DNA from: an uncultured Bacilli bacterium
GTDB lineage: Bacteria; Bacillota_I; Bacilli_A; RFN20; CAG-449
Assembly: GCA_944332225.1 (NCBI GenBank)
Contig: CALVJO010000008.1
Coordinates: 1-49,461, forward strand
Direction of reading: 5' to 3'
DNA length: 49,461 bases
The translations under genes and the position numbers were made by a program. Under the pieces are notes generated by a model, which saw only the letters and a program-made list of their open reading frames with translations, searched no databases and was not told the DNA's origin. How positions within the stretch are numbered: the first letter of the stretch is position 1; the number at the start of each line of letters is the position of its first letter. Below are positions 951-39,795 of the stretch, in pieces.

Positions 951-1370
951 TTATCTCCTGCTCATAAGATATGTATCAAGTATAACAACTGCGGCCATTT
1001 TATCAATAACTTTCTTCCGTTTCTTTCTCGATAAATCAGCCTGTAGAAGATAGTTAGTTGCTTCAACTGTAGAGAGTCTTTCATCAATCAAAGCTACCTT
1101 ACATTTTGGAAGAGCTTTTTCAATCATCTCTTTAAATTTACGTGACATCATAGAATGTTCTGATTCAGTTCCGTTCATGTTTAGAGGAAGACCTAAAGCG
1201 ATCTCTTCGATACCTTCTTTGTTTACATAATATATAACTCTTTCAAGAGCTTTTTCAAAATCGCAGTCATCGAATCTAAAAGTTTCTACGCCGCTGGCTA
1301 CGATATTTAAATAATCAGAAATTGCGATTCCTAAAGTTTTGGTTCCTAAATCTAAGCCTAAAATTTTCAT
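951..1370 (-). CDS. ruvX: Putative pre-16S rRNA nuclease / Holliday junction resolvase-like (YqgF, RuvX)
   Basis: 139 residues, the usual length. The RNase H-like fold is shown by the N-terminal MKILGLDLGTKTLGIAISD (first catalytic Asp), the central ALGLPLNMNG segment, and the C-terminal VALIDERLSTVEA and DKMAAVVILDTYL segments. In E. coli YqgF trims the 5' end of 16S rRNA; the older resolvase annotation is less supported. The ATG overlaps the TGA stop of alaS (ATGA at 1367-1370), so the pair is translationally coupled. The alaS-ruvX-DUF1292 order is conserved in Bacilli. Confidence 0.92.
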   Translation of the reverse strand: MKILGLDLGTKTLGIAISDYLNIVASGVETFRFDDCDFEKALERVIYYVNKEGIEEIALGLPLNMNGTESEHSMMSRKFKEMIEKALPKCKVALIDERLSTVEATNYLLQADLSRKKRKKVIDKMAAVVILDTYLMSRR

Positions 1371-3991
1371 CTGCTCAATTCCTCTTTCATAATTTTTAAA
1401 CTTTGATCAAGCTTAGAGATATCCTTTCCTCCCCCCTGCGCGGAGTCTTTTCTTCCTCCCCCGCGTCCATCGGTCATCATAGCTATCTTTTTAACTATAT
1501 CTCCAGCATTATATTTATTAACTAACTTAGATGAGACTCCAGAGACAAACATTATTCTAGAATCAACTACGTTAGCTAATAAGATAACATAATCATCATA
1601 GATTGTTTTTAAAGAATCAAATATTGACATGAAAGCTTTAGAATCTAAAGAAGAGAATTTATGAACTAATAAATGCGCGTCATTTAAAGCGATGAATTCA
1701 TTCTTTAATTCTTTTCCTTGATAGGAAGCAAGCTTGTCATTTAATGAAGATATTGTTTTCTTTAATGAACTATTTTCTGTTGTTAACTCATCAATTTTGT
1801 TTTCAAGCAAAGTAGGTCCGTTAGCTTTTAGACTTATAGTTAAAGAATTAACGATCTCTTGATACTTTTTAAGTTCAAGATAAGCATCGAATCCAGTTTT
1901 TCCTTCAATTCTTCTAATTCCTGAAGCGATAGCCTCTTCTTTAGTGATAATGAATAATCCAATATCCTTAGTTGAAGAGACGTGTGTACCTCCGCAGAAC
2001 TCAGAAGAGACATCTCCAAAAGATACCACTCTAATGATATCTCCATATTTTTCAGAGAAGAGATGCATAGCTTTTAGCTTCTCGGCTTCCTCCTTTTTAT
2101 AGTAAGAGACTTGGCACTTTAAATCTTGATTGATATACTGATTGACTAAAGATTCAATTTTTCTTAAATCATCATTTGAAATCTTATTAGGATAATTAAA
2201 ATCGAATCTTAAATAATCTTGACAGTTATAAGAACCTTCCTGATGGACATCATCTCCTAAAACCACCTGAAGAGCTTTTTGTAAAAGGTGAGTGCAAGAG
2301 TGATTTTGCATGGTTTTATTTCTTCTATTTTCATCGATTTGTAAAGTGAATTCATCACCTACATTAATCGTTCCATATTCAATCTCTACATGATGAAGAT
2401 TTTGCTTATTGACAGCTTTAATTACTTTAGTAATCTTACCTTGAGTTTTATCGTTAACAATGATTCCAACATCACCTTCTTGACCCCCTGAAGTTGCATA
2501 GAAGTTAGTAGTATCGAAGATGATATCTCCTTCCTCATCTAAGGAAGTTACTTTTTGACCATCTTTAAATAAACCAATTACTTTAGCTTTTAAAGGTTTA
2601 CTTTCATAAACGAAAGTGGAAGGTTCTTTAAATTCCATTAAATCAGCATTTTGAGCTGACATAGATTGTAAATCGCCTCGCGCGTTACGTGATTGAGATT
2701 TTTGATTTTCCATAGCTTGATCAAATTCTTCTTTATCGATGGAAAGAGAATGATCAGAAACTATTTCATTAGATAATTCAAATGGGAAACCAAAGGTATC
2801 ATATAATTTAAATACTTCTTTACCAGAGATAGTCGTCTTATTCTCTTTTTTAGCTTTATCAATTAAGGATAAAATTAATTCTTGTCCACCTTTTAAAGTT
2901 TTTGAAAACTTTTCTTCCTCAAATTTAATCATCTTACTAACTTTATCCTCATGCTCTTTAAGATATGGATAATAAGAATTCATCACTGAGCAAACAAGAG
3001 GGACTAAAGTATAAAGATAAGGTTTATCAATTCCTAGTTTTCTAAGATAGAGAGAGGCTCGACGAAGCAATCTTCTTAAAACGTAACCTCTTCCTTCATT
3101 AGAGAAAGTAGCCCCATCAGCAAGAGCAAAGGTGCAGGCCCTAATATGGTCTGCGACCACGCGATAGGCCATCAAATATTCTCCTTCATATGGATGAGGA
3201 GATATTTTTTGGATTTCTTTAATATATGGATAGAATAAATCAGTTTCAAAATTAGTTTCAGTATTTTGGAAGATGCAGGCTAAACGTTCTAAACCCGCGC
3301 CGGTATCGATATTTTTATGAGGTAACTCAGAATATTCTTCTCTTTTCTTACCTTTTTCGGCATTGAATTGAGAAAAGACAATATTCCATAATTCGATGTA
3401 ACGATCATTATCGAGATCATCATAAAGGAGCTTAACTCCTAGATGGTCAGGATCATATTTCTCACCTCGATCATAATACATTTCAGTATTAGGTCCGCAT
3501 GGTCCTTCACCGATCTCCCAGAAGTTGTGCTCGGAAGGAATTAAATGATCTTTATCGATTCCAAGCTTAATCCAAAGATTATAGGTATCCTTATCTGAAG
3601 GATGATATGTGATAAATAATTTATCAGTTGGAATGCCAAAGTATTTTTCTGAAGTTAATAATTCATAAGCCCATGGTAAAACATCATTTCTAAAATAATC
3701 ACCGATAGAAAAATTTCCTAACATTTCAAAAAAAGTATGGTGTCTAGCAGTTCTACCAACATTATCGATATCATTAGTTCTAATCGACTTTTGAGCATTA
3801 GTAATTCTTTTGTGAGGTGGAATTTCTGATCCATCAAAATATTTTTTTAAAGCTGCGACTCCTGAATTAATCCAAAGTAAAGTTGGATCATTATTAGGAA
3901 TCAATGAAGCGCTGGGTTCAATATAATGGCCTTTTGATTTAAAGAAATCCAACCACATTTGTCTAATTTGATCACCTGTTAAATAACGCAT
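1367..3991 (-). CDS. alaS: Alanyl-tRNA synthetase
   Basis: 874 residues, full length for AlaRS. I use the ATG at 3989-3991 (MRYLTGDQIRQMW) because it has GGAGG just upstream; an in-frame ATG at 4016-4018 would add nine hydrophobic residues and lies in the T-box terminator stem. The N-terminal class II catalytic core carries RTNDIDNVGRTARHHTFFEM. The editing domain contains HSCTHLLQKAL and CGGTHVSSTKDIG, the Zn/His-Cys motif. The C-terminal glycine-rich DGRGGGRKDSAQGGG completes the C-Ala domain. It attaches alanine to tRNA-Ala and clears Ser/Gly mischarging. It heads the operon and is regulated by the T-box at 4008-4203. Confidence 0.97.
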   Translation of the reverse strand: MRYLTGDQIRQMWLDFFKSKGHYIEPSASLIPNNDPTLLWINSGVAALKKYFDGSEIPPHKRITNAQKSIRTNDIDNVGRTARHHTFFEMLGNFSIGDYFRNDVLPWAYELLTSEKYFGIPTDKLFITYHPSDKDTYNLWIKLGIDKDHLIPSEHNFWEIGEGPCGPNTEMYYDRGEKYDPDHLGVKLLYDDLDNDRYIELWNIVFSQFNAEKGKKREEYSELPHKNIDTGAGLERLACIFQNTETNFETDLFYPYIKEIQKISPHPYEGEYLMAYRVVADHIRACTFALADGATFSNEGRGYVLRRLLRRASLYLRKLGIDKPYLYTLVPLVCSVMNSYYPYLKEHEDKVSKMIKFEEEKFSKTLKGGQELILSLIDKAKKENKTTISGKEVFKLYDTFGFPFELSNEIVSDHSLSIDKEEFDQAMENQKSQSRNARGDLQSMSAQNADLMEFKEPSTFVYESKPLKAKVIGLFKDGQKVTSLDEEGDIIFDTTNFYATSGGQEGDVGIIVNDKTQGKITKVIKAVNKQNLHHVEIEYGTINVGDEFTLQIDENRRNKTMQNHSCTHLLQKALQVVLGDDVHQEGSYNCQDYLRFDFNYPNKISNDDLRKIESLVNQYINQDLKCQVSYYKKEEAEKLKAMHLFSEKYGDIIRVVSFGDVSSEFCGGTHVSSTKDIGLFIITKEEAIASGIRRIEGKTGFDAYLELKKYQEIVNSLTISLKANGPTLLENKIDELTTENSSLKKTISSLNDKLASYQGKELKNEFIALNDAHLLVHKFSSLDSKAFMSIFDSLKTIYDDYVILLANVVDSRIMFVSGVSSKLVNKYNAGDIVKKIAMMTDGRGGGRKDSAQGGGKDISKLDQSLKIMKEELSR

Positions 3992-4007: not shown

Positions 4008-4203
4008 AAAAAAAGCATCTTTCAGGAACGGCCTAGCCGCGTTACCATCCTGATTCATCTACGATGCACCTTAATTTTAAGAGATAACGGTTCTTATCCG
4101 CGAGTTTCCTCGAGTCTCAGAAGTGGCACGGAAGTTTTTTCTTAGGCATTTCCACCTTCTAGCCCTCTCTTGAAGATAATTCTTCCTTAGTTTCGTCACA
4201 GAC
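4008..4203 (-). promoter_or_regulatory. T-box leader (alanine) with terminator upstream of alaS
   Basis: Read on the minus strand, the leader contains the T-box core AGGATGGTAACGCGG (complement of about 4035-4050). This is followed by a terminator: GCATC (4063-4067) pairs with GATGC (4015-4019) and TCAGGA (4048-4053) with TCCTGA (4022-4027), then seven U (4008-4014). Upstream lie the K-turn-like TGACGAAACTAAG, the AGAGAGGG and the GGTGGAAATGCC stem I elements. The sequence GTGCCACTTC places a GCC codon (complement of 4125-4127) where a specifier for alanine is expected. Uncharged tRNA-Ala should favour antitermination. The specifier position is inferred from the motif order. Confidence 0.9.
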
Positions 4204-4209
4204 AAGTTT

Positions 4210-4359: not shown

Positions 4360-4385
4360 AAAAAATAGTCTTCGCAGGCTATTTT
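4360..4385 (-). terminator. Intrinsic terminator, probably the original pnp terminator
   Basis: On the minus strand, arm AAAATAG (4379-4385) pairs with CTATTTT (4362-4368). Inside, CT/AG closes a GCGA tetraloop after one mismatch, and a run of U follows (complement of 4360-4365). No minus-strand gene now ends directly upstream; the IS30 element intervenes. The same 5' arm recurs beside pnp at 6107-6119, so this hairpin most likely served pnp before the insertion. Confidence 0.65.
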
Positions 4386-4387
4386 AA
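4375..4387 (+). repeat. 13-bp direct repeat, left copy (target-site duplication of IS30 element)
   Basis: CAGGCTATTTTAA is identical to 6107-6119 and brackets the IS30 element. It equals one arm of the terminator at 4360-4385. Confidence 0.7.
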
Positions 4388-4395
4388 CCTTAATT

Positions 4396-4414
4396 AAATT
4401 ATTAACTTCAAAAA
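4396..4414 (+). repeat. IS30 outer inverted repeat, left
   Basis: AAATTATTAACTTCAAAAA matches the reverse complement of 6052-6070 at 18 of 19 positions. Confidence 0.7.
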
Positions 4415-4483
4415 TGTAGAGGAGTTAAAAAATTAACTGCAAAAACTAAAATAGCAAATAATAAGAAAAATAGTTATATTGAA

Positions 4484-4499
4484 ATTACCTTCGTTGCTC
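4484..4499 (+). repeat. IS30 inner inverted repeat, left
   Basis: ATTACCTTCGTTGCTC matches the reverse complement of 5851-5866 at 15 of 16 positions. It lies 23 bp before the transposase ATG. Confidence 0.7.
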
Positions 4500-4522
4500 T
4501 GATAGAGGAAGGAGAATAAACA

Positions 4523-5842
4523 ATGGAAATTAAGAGCAAAAAGGAAAAATATAAACAGCTTAGAGTAGAAGATAGAAATCTAATCTTTTCTTTTATTGCG
4601 AAAGGATTAAATTTAACTCAATGTGCAACTTCGTTGGGGTTAGACATATCTACCTTAAAAAGAGAAATAGATAGGAATAAAATTCTTGTCGAAAATGGAA
4701 AATATAGGAATAGATGTGGTTGGAAACATCAATGCAACGAAATGCACGTATGTGGAAACACTAGATGTACACATTTATGCAAAGATTGTAGAAGAGGATT
4801 CCGATGCAACGAGAAATGTAGAATGTTTACTCCAGAGCCAAAATGCAAAAAGCTAAAGAAGCTATGTGGGGTATGTAATGGATGTGATGAAAAAGATAAG
4901 TGCAGCCTAAACAAATATATTTATGATCCTCAAAAAGCTGATAAAAGGTATCAAAATAAATTAACTGAAGCGCATAAAGGAGTCAGATTAAGTGACAAGG
5001 AATTGAAAGAATTTACTGAATTTTTAAAACCATTAATATTAAAGGGATTGTCATTAGAAGTTATAAAATCACAATATCCAACTCAATTTAATTATTCAGT
5101 ACAAACAGTTTATAATTGGATAAATTCAGGCTTATTACCTGGTATTTTGAACTTAGACTTACCTAGAAAAGTTCGTTATGCTAAGAGATCCAAGAAGAAA
5201 AAGGATGTAATAGAAAGAGAATATCTATCCAAAAGAACATACCAAGATTTCATCGCATATACGACAGAGAATCCTTATGACGAGGTGGTAGAAATGGATA
5301 CCGTCGAAGGAACAGGCAAGAATTCGTTTTTATTAACATTACTGTTCAGAAGAAGTAATTTCATGATGGCTTTTATATTAAGAGACCATACATCTCAAGC
5401 TGTTATAGAAGTGTTTGACAAAATAAAAAAGTATTTAGGCAATGATTTATTTAGTCGAACTTTTAAAGTTATCTTAACCGATAGGGGAAGCGAATTTACA
5501 AAACCTCTAGAAATTGAAGTTGACAAAAAGACAAATCAAGTTCTAACTCATGTGTTTTATTGTGATGCTAGACAAAGCCAACAAAAAGGTAAAATAGAAA
5601 AAAATCATGTGGAATTGAGAAAGTTATTTCCTAAAGGAAGCATAGGTTCTAATTTTAATAACCTTACCCAAGAATATCTCAATAAATGCATGAGTATGAT
5701 TAATTCTTACCCTAGGCCTAGCTTAAACTTTAAGTGTCCACATGATATCTTTGCCTCTTATTCAGATGAAAGAGTCTTAAAAATGGTACAAGCCCAAAAA
5801 ATACCATTCGATCAAATCAATTTGAAGATAGTTAGAGGCTAA
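4523..5842 (+). CDS. IS30-family transposase with cysteine-rich insertion
   Basis: 439 residues, apparently intact. A helix-turn-helix near residues 28-50 (LTQCATSLGLDISTLKREI) is followed by 13 cysteines between about residues 65 and 130 in C-x2-C and C-x3-C spacings, likely a zinc-binding insert seen in some Firmicute IS30 transposases. The DDE catalytic core is visible as EMDTVEG (first Asp), ILTDRGSEF (second Asp) and QKGKIEKNH (Glu). The ATG has a good AAGGAG site. It mobilises the surrounding element by DDE transposition. Its codon usage lacks the CGCG contexts common in neighbouring genes, consistent with acquisition. Confidence 0.92.
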   Translation: MEIKSKKEKYKQLRVEDRNLIFSFIAKGLNLTQCATSLGLDISTLKREIDRNKILVENGKYRNRCGWKHQCNEMHVCGNTRCTHLCKDCRRGFRCNEKCRMFTPEPKCKKLKKLCGVCNGCDEKDKCSLNKYIYDPQKADKRYQNKLTEAHKGVRLSDKELKEFTEFLKPLILKGLSLEVIKSQYPTQFNYSVQTVYNWINSGLLPGILNLDLPRKVRYAKRSKKKKDVIEREYLSKRTYQDFIAYTTENPYDEVVEMDTVEGTGKNSFLLTLLFRRSNFMMAFILRDHTSQAVIEVFDKIKKYLGNDLFSRTFKVILTDRGSEFTKPLEIEVDKKTNQVLTHVFYCDARQSQQKGKIEKNHVELRKLFPKGSIGSNFNNLTQEYLNKCMSMINSYPRPSLNFKCPHDIFASYSDERVLKMVQAQKIPFDQINLKIVRG

Positions 5843-5850
5843 AATTTTTT

Positions 5851-5866
5851 GAGCAACGGAGGTAAT
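5851..5866 (+). repeat. IS30 inner inverted repeat, right
   Basis: GAGCAACGGAGGTAAT, partner of 4484-4499, begins 9 bp after the transposase stop codon. Confidence 0.7.
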
Positions 5867-6051
5867 AAACTCACATTATTTTAACGATTTATTTTTTGCA
5901 TTTAATTTTTGAATTCATCAATGAATCGTATTTTTGTCGTGCCTTAATTACCTTGTTTGCCATTAAATTATAGTTAAAAAATTAAATTTACCATAGTTTA
6001 TATGATCAAAAGTTTATTAATTTTCCTCTTATTTATACATTTTTTTGTGTT

Positions 6052-6070
6052 TTTTTGAAGTTATTAATTT
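6052..6070 (+). repeat. IS30 outer inverted repeat, right
   Basis: TTTTTGAAGTTATTAATTT, partner of 4396-4414 with one mismatch. Confidence 0.7.
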
Positions 6071-6106
6071 TTTTAATTGTTTTTGAACTTTGATTTTGAA
6101 TCAAGC

Positions 6107-6119
6107 CAGGCTATTTTAA
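6107..6119 (+). repeat. 13-bp direct repeat, right copy (target-site duplication of IS30 element)
   Basis: CAGGCTATTTTAA, identical to 4375-4387. On the minus strand it reads as an orphan 5' arm of a terminator 20 bp after the pnp stop. Confidence 0.7.
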
Positions 6120-6139: not shown

Positions 6140-8278
6140 CTATTCGTGATGCTCGGCTTCAACTTTAGGCTCAAATTCTTTATGAGATAAGTTGATTCTA
6201 CCCTTCTCATCGATTTCAGTTACGATAACTTTAAGCTTTTGACCGACTTTTACAACATCTTTAGGATGATTTACTCTTGTTGGTAAGATCTTAGAAACAT
6301 GAACTAAACCATCAACATCATTGAATAGATTTACAAAGCAACCGTATGATTCAATTCTAACAACAGTTCCTTCGAATATTTCTCCAACATGGGCTACTCT
6401 AGCGATATCAAGAATCATCTTCTTAGCTTTTTCAATTGATTCACGATTGACGTGATAGATTGTCACCTTTCCGTCATCTTGAATATCAATCTTTACATCA
6501 TCGCATTTAGCTATTATATCGTTAATAACTTTTCCTTGTGAACCGATGACTTCACGTATCTTATCTGGATCGATTGTGAAGGTGGTCATCTTAGGCGCGT
6601 ACTTAGATACTTCTTTTCTAGGTTCTGGAATAGCATTTAAGACAACACCCATAATCTCTTCTCTAGCTTTATGAGCTTGAGTTAAAGCTTGACGGATGAT
6701 TTCTTCGGTGATTCCTTTGATCTTAATATCCATTTGTAATGCGGTGATACCATCTTTAGTACCAGCAACTTTAAAGTCCATATCGCCTAAATGATCTTCA
6801 AGACCTTGAATATCAGTTAAGATGGTATAAGGATATCCTTCTTCAACTGGGCCAGAAGTAATTAATCCCATAGCGATACCAACAACTGGTTTTCTAATTG
6901 GGACACCGGCAGCCATTAAAGCCATGCAAGATGCGCATATTGAAGCTTGAGAAGATGAACCGTTAGATTCAACAACTTCAGCAACAACTCTAATGGTGTA
7001 TGGGAATTCATCTTGAGAAGGGATAACGTAAGAAAGAGCTCTTTCTCCTAATGCACCGTGACCGATTTCTCTTCTTCCAGGAGTGCCCATTCTGCCAACT
7101 TCGCCAACTGAATAAGGTGGGAAATTATAATGATGCATGAAACGTTTAGTTTCTTCATCAGATAAATTATCAATAATTTGCTCATCTGACTGCGCGCCTA
7201 AGGTACAAACAGAAATAACTTGAGTTTGTCCTCTTGTAAACATCGCGGATCCATGAGTTCTAGGAAGGAGATCAACTTGAGCGTCTAGAGGTCTAATCTC
7301 ATCAATCTTTCTTCCATCTGGTCTAACTTTATCATAAGTGATAAGTCTTCTAACTTCATCTCTTACGAAGCCTTCCATGATATCTTTAACTTGCTTTAAA
7401 GTTAATTTCTTTTCTTTTTCATCCTTATATTCTTTATTTTCATAAAGGTCTAGGACTTCTTTTTCAATCGCATCGATTGCATCTTGTCTCTCCAATTTAT
7501 CGACGATAGATACTGATTTAGTAATTCTATCTTTAGAAAGAGAAGTAACCGCGTCGATTAATTCTTGAGGAACTGAATAGAGAACAATCTCTCTCTTTTC
7601 TTTTCCGATTTCTTTAACTATCTCTTCTTGGAAAGCGCATAGTTCTTTAATTGCTTCATGTCCAAACATGATGGCTCTGAGCATCTCTTCTTCAGATAAT
7701 TCGTTTGCTCCAGCTTCAACCATGTTGACTGCTTTTTTAGTTCCCGCGACAGCGAGATTTAAATCTGATTTTTCTTTTTCTTCAGCGTTTGGATTAATAA
7801 CATATTCTCCGTTAACTCTACCGACATATACTCCAGCGATAGGTCCATCAAATGGAATATCAGAGATAGATAGAGCTAAAGAGGCTCCAAACATTGCAGC
7901 CATCTCAGGTGTTGCGTTTGGATCAACTGACATGACTGTATTAACAATTTGAACTTCGTTTCTAAAACCTTCTGGGAACATTGGTCTGATTGGTCGATCA
8001 ATCATTCTCGCGGTTAAAGTCGCGTGTTCACCTGGTCTTCCTTCTCTTCTTAGAAAAGATCCAGGAATTTTGCCGACAGCGTATAGCTTTTCTTCATAAC
8101 CGACTGTTAAAGGGAAAAAGTCGGTATCTTTAGCTTCATCTGCGCAGCAGGCGGTAGATAAAACCACGGTATCATCCAAGCGGATTAAACAAGCTCCATC
8201 AGCTTGCTTAGCAATCTCGCCAGTTTCAACGATCAGTTTCTTACCATAGAAGTCTTTGGAAAATACTTTCTTTGACAT
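6140..8278 (-). CDS. pnp: Polyribonucleotide nucleotidyltransferase (PNPase)
   Basis: 712 residues, standard PNPase length. It degrades RNA 3' to 5' by phosphorolysis. Two RNase PH domains are seen: the first contains [20 protein letters not shown], the second [12 protein letters not shown] and [21 protein letters not shown] domain ([19 protein letters not shown], about residues 560-610) and an S1 domain ([19 protein letters not shown], about 630-700) follow. A GGAG site lies 10 nt before the ATG. It ends in TAG with no intact terminator directly after it; the terminator seems displaced by the IS30 element. The usual rpsO-pnp adjacency is broken by genes at 8443-10859. Confidence 0.97.
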
Positions 8279-39581: not shown

Positions 39582-39587
39582 TTAGTA

Positions 39588-39795
39588 AAGGCGATGAAAA
39601 AGACAGACGCCTCCTAACTAGCATAGAGAATCATTGGTTGGTGGAAAATGATCTAGGTAAAGAGAAACGGATCACTTTGGAGCCGTCAAATTGAAAATAG
39701 TAAATTTGACCGTCACCTGCGTTAAAGGATAATTGAGGTGCTCTTTTGAGAACTAAGGTGGTACCGCGCGTAAGCGTCCTTAGGAGGACGTTTTT
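39588..39795 (+). promoter_or_regulatory. T-box leader (isoleucine) upstream of ileS
   Basis: The T-box AAGGTGGTACCGCG is at 39755-39768. The terminator CGTCCT/AGGACG with TAGG loop and five T is at 39775-39795. Stem I elements GGCGATGAAAAAGACAGACGCC and GGTTGGTGGAAAATGATC precede, and GGATCACTTTGG presents an ATC (Ile) codon at 39671-39673, the likely specifier. Uncharged tRNA-Ile should allow ileS transcription. Confidence 0.93.

Follow-up and report, generated by a model that had tools for sequence, protein, structure and literature searches.

The window, by which we mean the whole stretch of 49,461 nucleotides analysed here, is one contig of a 1.33-Mb assembly in 48 contigs. Two genes on its minus strand, pnp (6140-8278) upstream and alaS (approximately 1367-3991) downstream, are separated by a 1719-bp insertion element of the IS30 family lying on the plus strand (4388-6106), the sole gene of which encodes an intact transposase of 439 amino acids (4523-5842) and is opposed in orientation to both neighbours. 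The T-box leader of alaS (4021-4208, minus strand) has been left undisturbed; it scores 59 bits (E 8e-12) where the curated cut-off is 93, and is a weaker match than a second T-box leader at 39585-39784 (Rfam RF00230, 105 bits), which stands immediately before an isoleucyl-tRNA synthetase-like gene. The element described here is the only full copy in the assembly, which contains in addition one incomplete copy, a left end lying at the border of a different contig (L039, G000 contig 38, 1-150) and 93-95% identical to 4388-4469. What cuts this left end short is a different repeat, a multi-copy sequence where the assembly breaks: its first 77 bases are found again within contig 16 and at the edges of contigs 41 and 44.

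The limits of the element are marked by two exact copies of the 13-bp sequence CAGGCTATTTTAA (4375-4387 and 6107-6119), which adjoin without gap a pair of terminal inverted repeats (4388-4415 on the plus strand and 6079-6106 on the minus strand) identical at 18 of 28 positions (shuffle p=0.0003). A search of the window tolerating up to one mismatch retrieved CAGGCTATTTTAA at these two places only, the expectation in shuffled sequence being 0.22 matches, and for two given flanks an exact agreement over 13 bases would arise by chance with a probability of about 8e-8. When every possible left and right end was scanned blindly, 4388/6106 with the 13-bp duplication ranked first. The left terminal repeat resembles the end of the relative L054, and the same anatomy, inverted repeats flanking one transposase gene and matching at up to 28 of 28 positions in relatives, was found at 81 independent sites. 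The other candidate for the ends is an inner inverted repeat of 16 bp (4484-4499/5851-5866), which closely brackets the transposase gene and would make the true element 4484-5866 and the 13-bp repeat an accident. These positions, however, carry no short direct repeat, and the relatives refute the proposal: at the 81 sites the ends, with their adjoining duplications of 12-16 bp (rarely longer), fall outside the inner repeat, which therefore is not the end of the element. An earlier note on this DNA had proposed both the 13-bp duplication and ends lying beyond 4484/5866, and both proposals stand; we regard the ends 4388/6106 and the target duplication as practically certain, and the shorter element as having virtually no chance of being correct.

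The IS30-type assignment made in the same note is likewise confirmed by the match of the transposase to NCBIfam NF033563 at 106.4 bits (cut-off 80); among Pfam models, HTH_38 is found above its cut-off and rve below. The duplication of 13 bp departs from the 2-4 bp that are typical, though not universal, in the family, whose members transpose by copy-out paste-in by way of a circle. Between the HTH and the DDE core the protein has a Cys-rich stretch with CxxC-type spacing (window 4711-4905, residues ~64-128), in which C108, C118, C121 and C127 are invariant in our transposase alignment (A1); it is possibly a zinc-binding domain special to the clade described below. Extra copies of the terminal-repeat motif, of the AACTTCAAAAA type, occur at 6052-6076 and 4433-4446, about 30-45 bp inside each end, and probably represent tandem transposase-binding sites.

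Relatives of the element were gathered within the order and the class, as well as in a public genome collection, and each was scanned for adjoining inverted and direct repeats. At a site score cut-off of 29.5 (the best score obtained with shuffled flanks was 28.8), 81 non-redundant sites from Bacilli and Clostridia passed. The set required duplications of at least 10 bp and hence describes their length when visible, not the frequency with which they are visible: 12-16 bp are duplicated in 79 of the 81 sites, mostly 13 or 14 (47 sites with 13 bp, 23 with 14, five with 15, three with 12, and one each with 16, 21 and 31 bp). Identical elements inserted at several sites of one genome (the sets L133/L134/L206, L162/L198/L212 and L216/L217; Konateibacter, Anaerocolumna and Clostridium sp. 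KNHs205) have the same ends and length with different duplicated sequences. The ends follow a consensus close to S-S-T-N-A-A-T-T-G, and in the transposase tree the window's clade forms a branch with 100/100 support, apart from both canonical IS30 and IS1630-like elements, inside which duplications of 13 bp and of 14 bp or more group by subclade. Across sites there is no base consensus at the target save for one biased column outside the duplication, which, given the number of columns, is probably due to chance; 61 of the sites are intergenic, eight lie within open reading frames and 12 are unclear. We hold with very high confidence that the length of the duplication is nearly fixed in this clade. 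The element at hand is a member of this large and distinct group, inserted 3' of pnp; its strand cuts would lie 13 bp apart, and the site duplication would be 13 bp long because of that spacing.

The position of the insertion deserves separate consideration. A hairpin expected to serve pnp is whole at the left junction (4362-4385, minus strand, with a T6 tail at 4365-4360 on that strand). Joining the two flanks yields AAAATAG-c-CT-gcga-AG-a-CTATTTT plus six T some 20 nt past the pnp stop, just as the earlier note had described for a deletion of the element, and the pnp-alaS gap of an element-free allele should contain TTAAAATAGCCTGCGAAGACTATTTTTTG. By itself the hairpin is weak (-4.7 kcal/mol, z -0.9), and it is not called when the sequence as it now stands is scanned for terminators in a simple way. 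Almost all family members have a hairpin and a T run 3' of the pnp stop, usually stronger than that of the window, and therefore a terminator is expected after the window's pnp too, in line with the view of the note that the insertion struck a terminator hairpin just past pnp. The pnp 3' hairpins of G001, G002, G003, G004, G005, G008, G011, G012 and G017 are conserved in position and unrelated in sequence; the gap sequence of the window was not found among the pnp 3' ends of the relatives, all of which are too distant. That the terminator had been split, as the note put it, is contradicted by the left junction: because the duplicated 13 bp include one arm, both arms are still together at 4362-4385 on the alaS side, and the pnp side retains a lone arm (6107-6119). 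Its further claim, that pnp was left without a nearby terminator, agrees with a hairpin now separated from pnp by the full length of the element and with a terminator scan that found no replacement inside it. The duplication has kept the hairpin intact on the alaS side and taken it away from the 3' end of pnp.

The earlier note had gone on to explain this position by recognition and duplication of inverted repeats in the manner of IS1630, the target being here a terminator. At the site in the window there is indeed a hairpin, which with a score of 20.5 ranks in about the top tenth among 77 sites, and L107, L234, L092 and L118 are also inserted into hairpins. Across the clade, however, the hairpin score at the centre of the duplication averages 10.45 against 9.90 in control windows (p=0.25), so that the other copies, which the note had suggested checking for hairpin arms as flanks, show no excess at the centre over their flanks; the same measure gave 27.5 against 10.0 (p=6e-8) in a positive control of IS1630-like copies, 12 from the mycoplasma genome G301 and one from G388. 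The test therefore has power, and the clade behaves differently. Our by-eye impression that many target sites are hairpins was mostly removed when the positional profile was set against the sites' own flanks. L054, at 53% identity the nearest relative, inserted where there is no hairpin (score 10.7), and L058-L061 are likewise outside strong hairpins; only a single arm is duplicated in the window, and the duplication length of the clade is nearly fixed whereas that of IS1630 and ISMfau-2 varies from 16 to 29 bp (PMC3317919, PMC11062135). A small excess of hairpins near the sites may leave room for some preference: the mean best score is 13.9 against 13.2 in their own flanks (p=0.037), and strong hairpins within 10 nt on either side number 11 against 6.9 expected of 77 sites (p=0.04), other cut-offs not being significant. 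Altogether, we are confident that the clade lacks hairpin targeting of the IS1630 type, and consider the recognition proposed in the note improbable. For the site in the window, chance or a weak preference for gene 3' ends is a simpler explanation; the hairpin would probably have been hit because it lies in AT-rich intergenic DNA, a common and harmless target, with no recognition of the hairpin as such. As to the mycoplasma copies themselves, nearly all of the twelve in G301 (L300-L311) lie in terminator-like hairpins placed between A and T runs, with the whole hairpin (11-24 bp) duplicated, and they are a clean case of terminator-targeting transposition.

Although rejected as the end of the element, the inner inverted repeat proved to be a feature in its own right. 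Its 5' arm (4484-4499, plus strand) precedes the Shine-Dalgarno sequence, and its 3' arm (5851-5866, plus strand), 8 nt past the stop codon, can pair with it at all 16 positions, 15 of them Watson-Crick and one a sense-strand G.U. In 109 non-redundant elements (<90% identity) the 75 nt preceding the start codon were set against the 80 nt that follow the stop, and an inner repeat with an ungapped score of at least 10 was present in 64 of them, as compared with 2.0% of mismatched-element pairs; by this ungapped measure about 40% of the elements score below 10. The arm sequences of all 64 differ from each other. A held-out sample from Clostridia gave 14 of 19, for a total of 78/128, and none was seen in 25 canonical IS30 elements, whose mean score of 7.5 is near the null of 6.7. 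The two untranslated regions, separately aligned, covary: in a group of 18 elements none of 200 row permutations reached the observed value, and in a group of 11 the p value was 0.025. The arms have a G+C content of 50% against 26% upstream. We have hardly any doubt that the inner repeat is genuine and conserved among the elements of this clade.

Its location relative to the transposase gene is also regular. A -10-like hexamer, TATATT (4475-4480, plus strand), stands 3 nt before the 5' arm in the window and marks a putative promoter; in 46 of 74 elements such a hexamer ends 3-8 nt before the arm, against 13.5% further upstream (p=4e-22), the -35 boxes beside these hexamers being weak. Therefore, the 5' arm would begin at the predicted transcription start. 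From its end to the Shine-Dalgarno sequence there is a median of 6 nt, with overlap in only one of 72 elements, and the 3' arm begins at a median of 13.5 nt after the stop codon, within the approximately 265 nt of noncoding DNA that follow the gene in clade elements. In this downstream region (5867-6050 in the window) 42% of elements have a run of five T lying 40-80 nt beyond the 3' arm, as compared with 12-18% for adjacent stretches; this run is perhaps the end of the transcript or part of the subterminal repeats.

An arrangement of this kind may be read at the level of RNA or at that of DNA. Mismatches within the arms favour the former, as 19 of them would be wobble pairs in the sense strand and 5 in the antisense strand (p=0.007), when mismatched controls gave 392:371. 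The same bias speaks against the arms being DNA sites, whether an operator or a place where the transposase binds, serving autorepression by looping or the assembly of a transposition complex; so do the strong divergence of the arm sequences between the window and L054, close kin with near-identical terminal repeats, and the placement of the arms just outside the Shine-Dalgarno sequence and just after the stop, as expected of a feature of the mRNA. Repressors, on the other hand, often bind at the transcription start point, where the 5' arm is predicted to lie, and terminal repeats likewise keep left-right identity while varying between elements. There is also a mild excess of -10 sequences on the minus strand near the 3' arm (20% versus 10%), and the comparison of sense and antisense duplex energies reached p=0.09; on account of these two results a role as DNA sites keeps some likelihood, though we find it rather unlikely. 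Less likely still is that the 3' arm works in trans, a small RNA made from one copy's 3' end pairing with the transposase mRNA of any copy at its 5' end and silencing it. It would produce the same covariation and could be housed in the ~265 nt of 3' noncoding DNA, and small RNAs encoded close to the ends are employed by other insertion sequences, ISPpu9 included (PMC8450116). Many genomes, however, carry a single copy, and the short and regular distance of this arm from the stop is that of a feature acting in cis. Action of the inner repeat as RNA, to judge from its sequence and position, is hence what we consider probable.

According to this RNA reading, the transposase mRNA would open with the 5' arm and carry the 3' arm just after its stop codon, the two pairing in the sense transcript as a helix of 10-20 bp that joins the 5' end to the stop region and leaves the Shine-Dalgarno sequence accessible. 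Such a helix would most likely control the life or the use of the transposase mRNA: it could protect the 5' end against exonucleases, serve as a substrate for RNase III, or couple translation to the finished transcript. Whether the repeat affects transposase expression, in either direction, is to our mind an even bet, and we would give similarly balanced odds to the broader proposition that a large IS30-type clade of Bacillota relies on a covarying closed-loop helix between the mRNA 5' end and the region past the stop, evolving element by element and placed just outside the positions of the ribosome at start and stop, for the general control of transposition at the post-transcriptional level. 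To the whole explanation of the locus, namely insertion by a clade member with a cut spacing of 13 bp, no recognition of the hairpin, and an inner repeat that forms a helix between the 5' and 3' regions of the mRNA, we assign a probability of about 0.6.

Transposases must be kept scarce. To our knowledge, the known RNA controls of transposase in bacteria (antisense RNAs, structured 5' ends, frameshifts) act mostly near the start of the message. If our reading is true, pairing of the 5' end with the 3' UTR across many transposons would constitute a different layout of control and a rare natural case of end-to-end pairing of a bacterial mRNA. In the open-access literature searched we found no description of an inverted repeat linking the 5' end and the 3' UTR in transposons, and its novelty is provisional. 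Independently of the RNA, a nearly fixed duplication of 13-15 bp, against the 2-4 bp of canonical elements and the hairpin-long ones of IS1630-like elements, lets one ask what in the transposase sets the spacing of the strand cuts.

With canonical IS30 of the E. coli type the element shares an IS30-family transposase with a DDE core and imperfect terminal inverted repeats. It differs from it in the size of the protein (439 aa with a Cys-rich stretch, against ~315-350 aa), in its duplication of 13 bp, when most canonical elements duplicate 2-4 bp and IS30 itself 2 bp (PMC9333248), and in the possession of ~265 nt of 3' noncoding DNA and of the inner repeat. IS1630 of Mycoplasma fermentans, ISMfau-2 and ISMhom-1 have in common with the window's clade their membership of the IS30 family and their long duplications, and IS1630 has imperfect ends of ~27 bp (PMC3317919, PMC11062135, PMC7648426). 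What IS1630-like elements duplicate, nonetheless, is an entire inverted repeat, the length of which varies (11-24 bp in G301), and the window's clade duplicates a nearly fixed length without aiming at hairpins; neither variable duplications, nor inverted-repeat targets, nor a grouping with IS1630-like elements in the tree were found for it.

As for the inner repeat, the closest parallel is the icaR mRNA of S. aureus, in which a UCCCCUG motif of the 3' UTR pairs with the Shine-Dalgarno sequence (PMC3868564), with consequences for translation and for decay by RNase III. In both cases the 3' UTR is complementary to the message's own 5' UTR; unlike that of icaR, the predicted pairing in the clade covers 10-20 bp at the predicted 5' end, beside the Shine-Dalgarno sequence rather than over it, and it resides in a transposon and is conserved through covariation. 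Control through the 5' UTR of the transposase mRNA at a post-transcriptional level would also liken the clade to other insertion sequences, as the transposases of IS10, IS30 and IS200 are controlled by antisense RNAs, and ISPpu9 encodes the small RNAs Asr9 and Ssr9 up- and downstream of its transposase gene (PMC8450116). Those systems employ antisense or separate small RNAs, whereas the predicted partner of the 5' arm in the present clade is carried by the same transcript, right past the stop codon.
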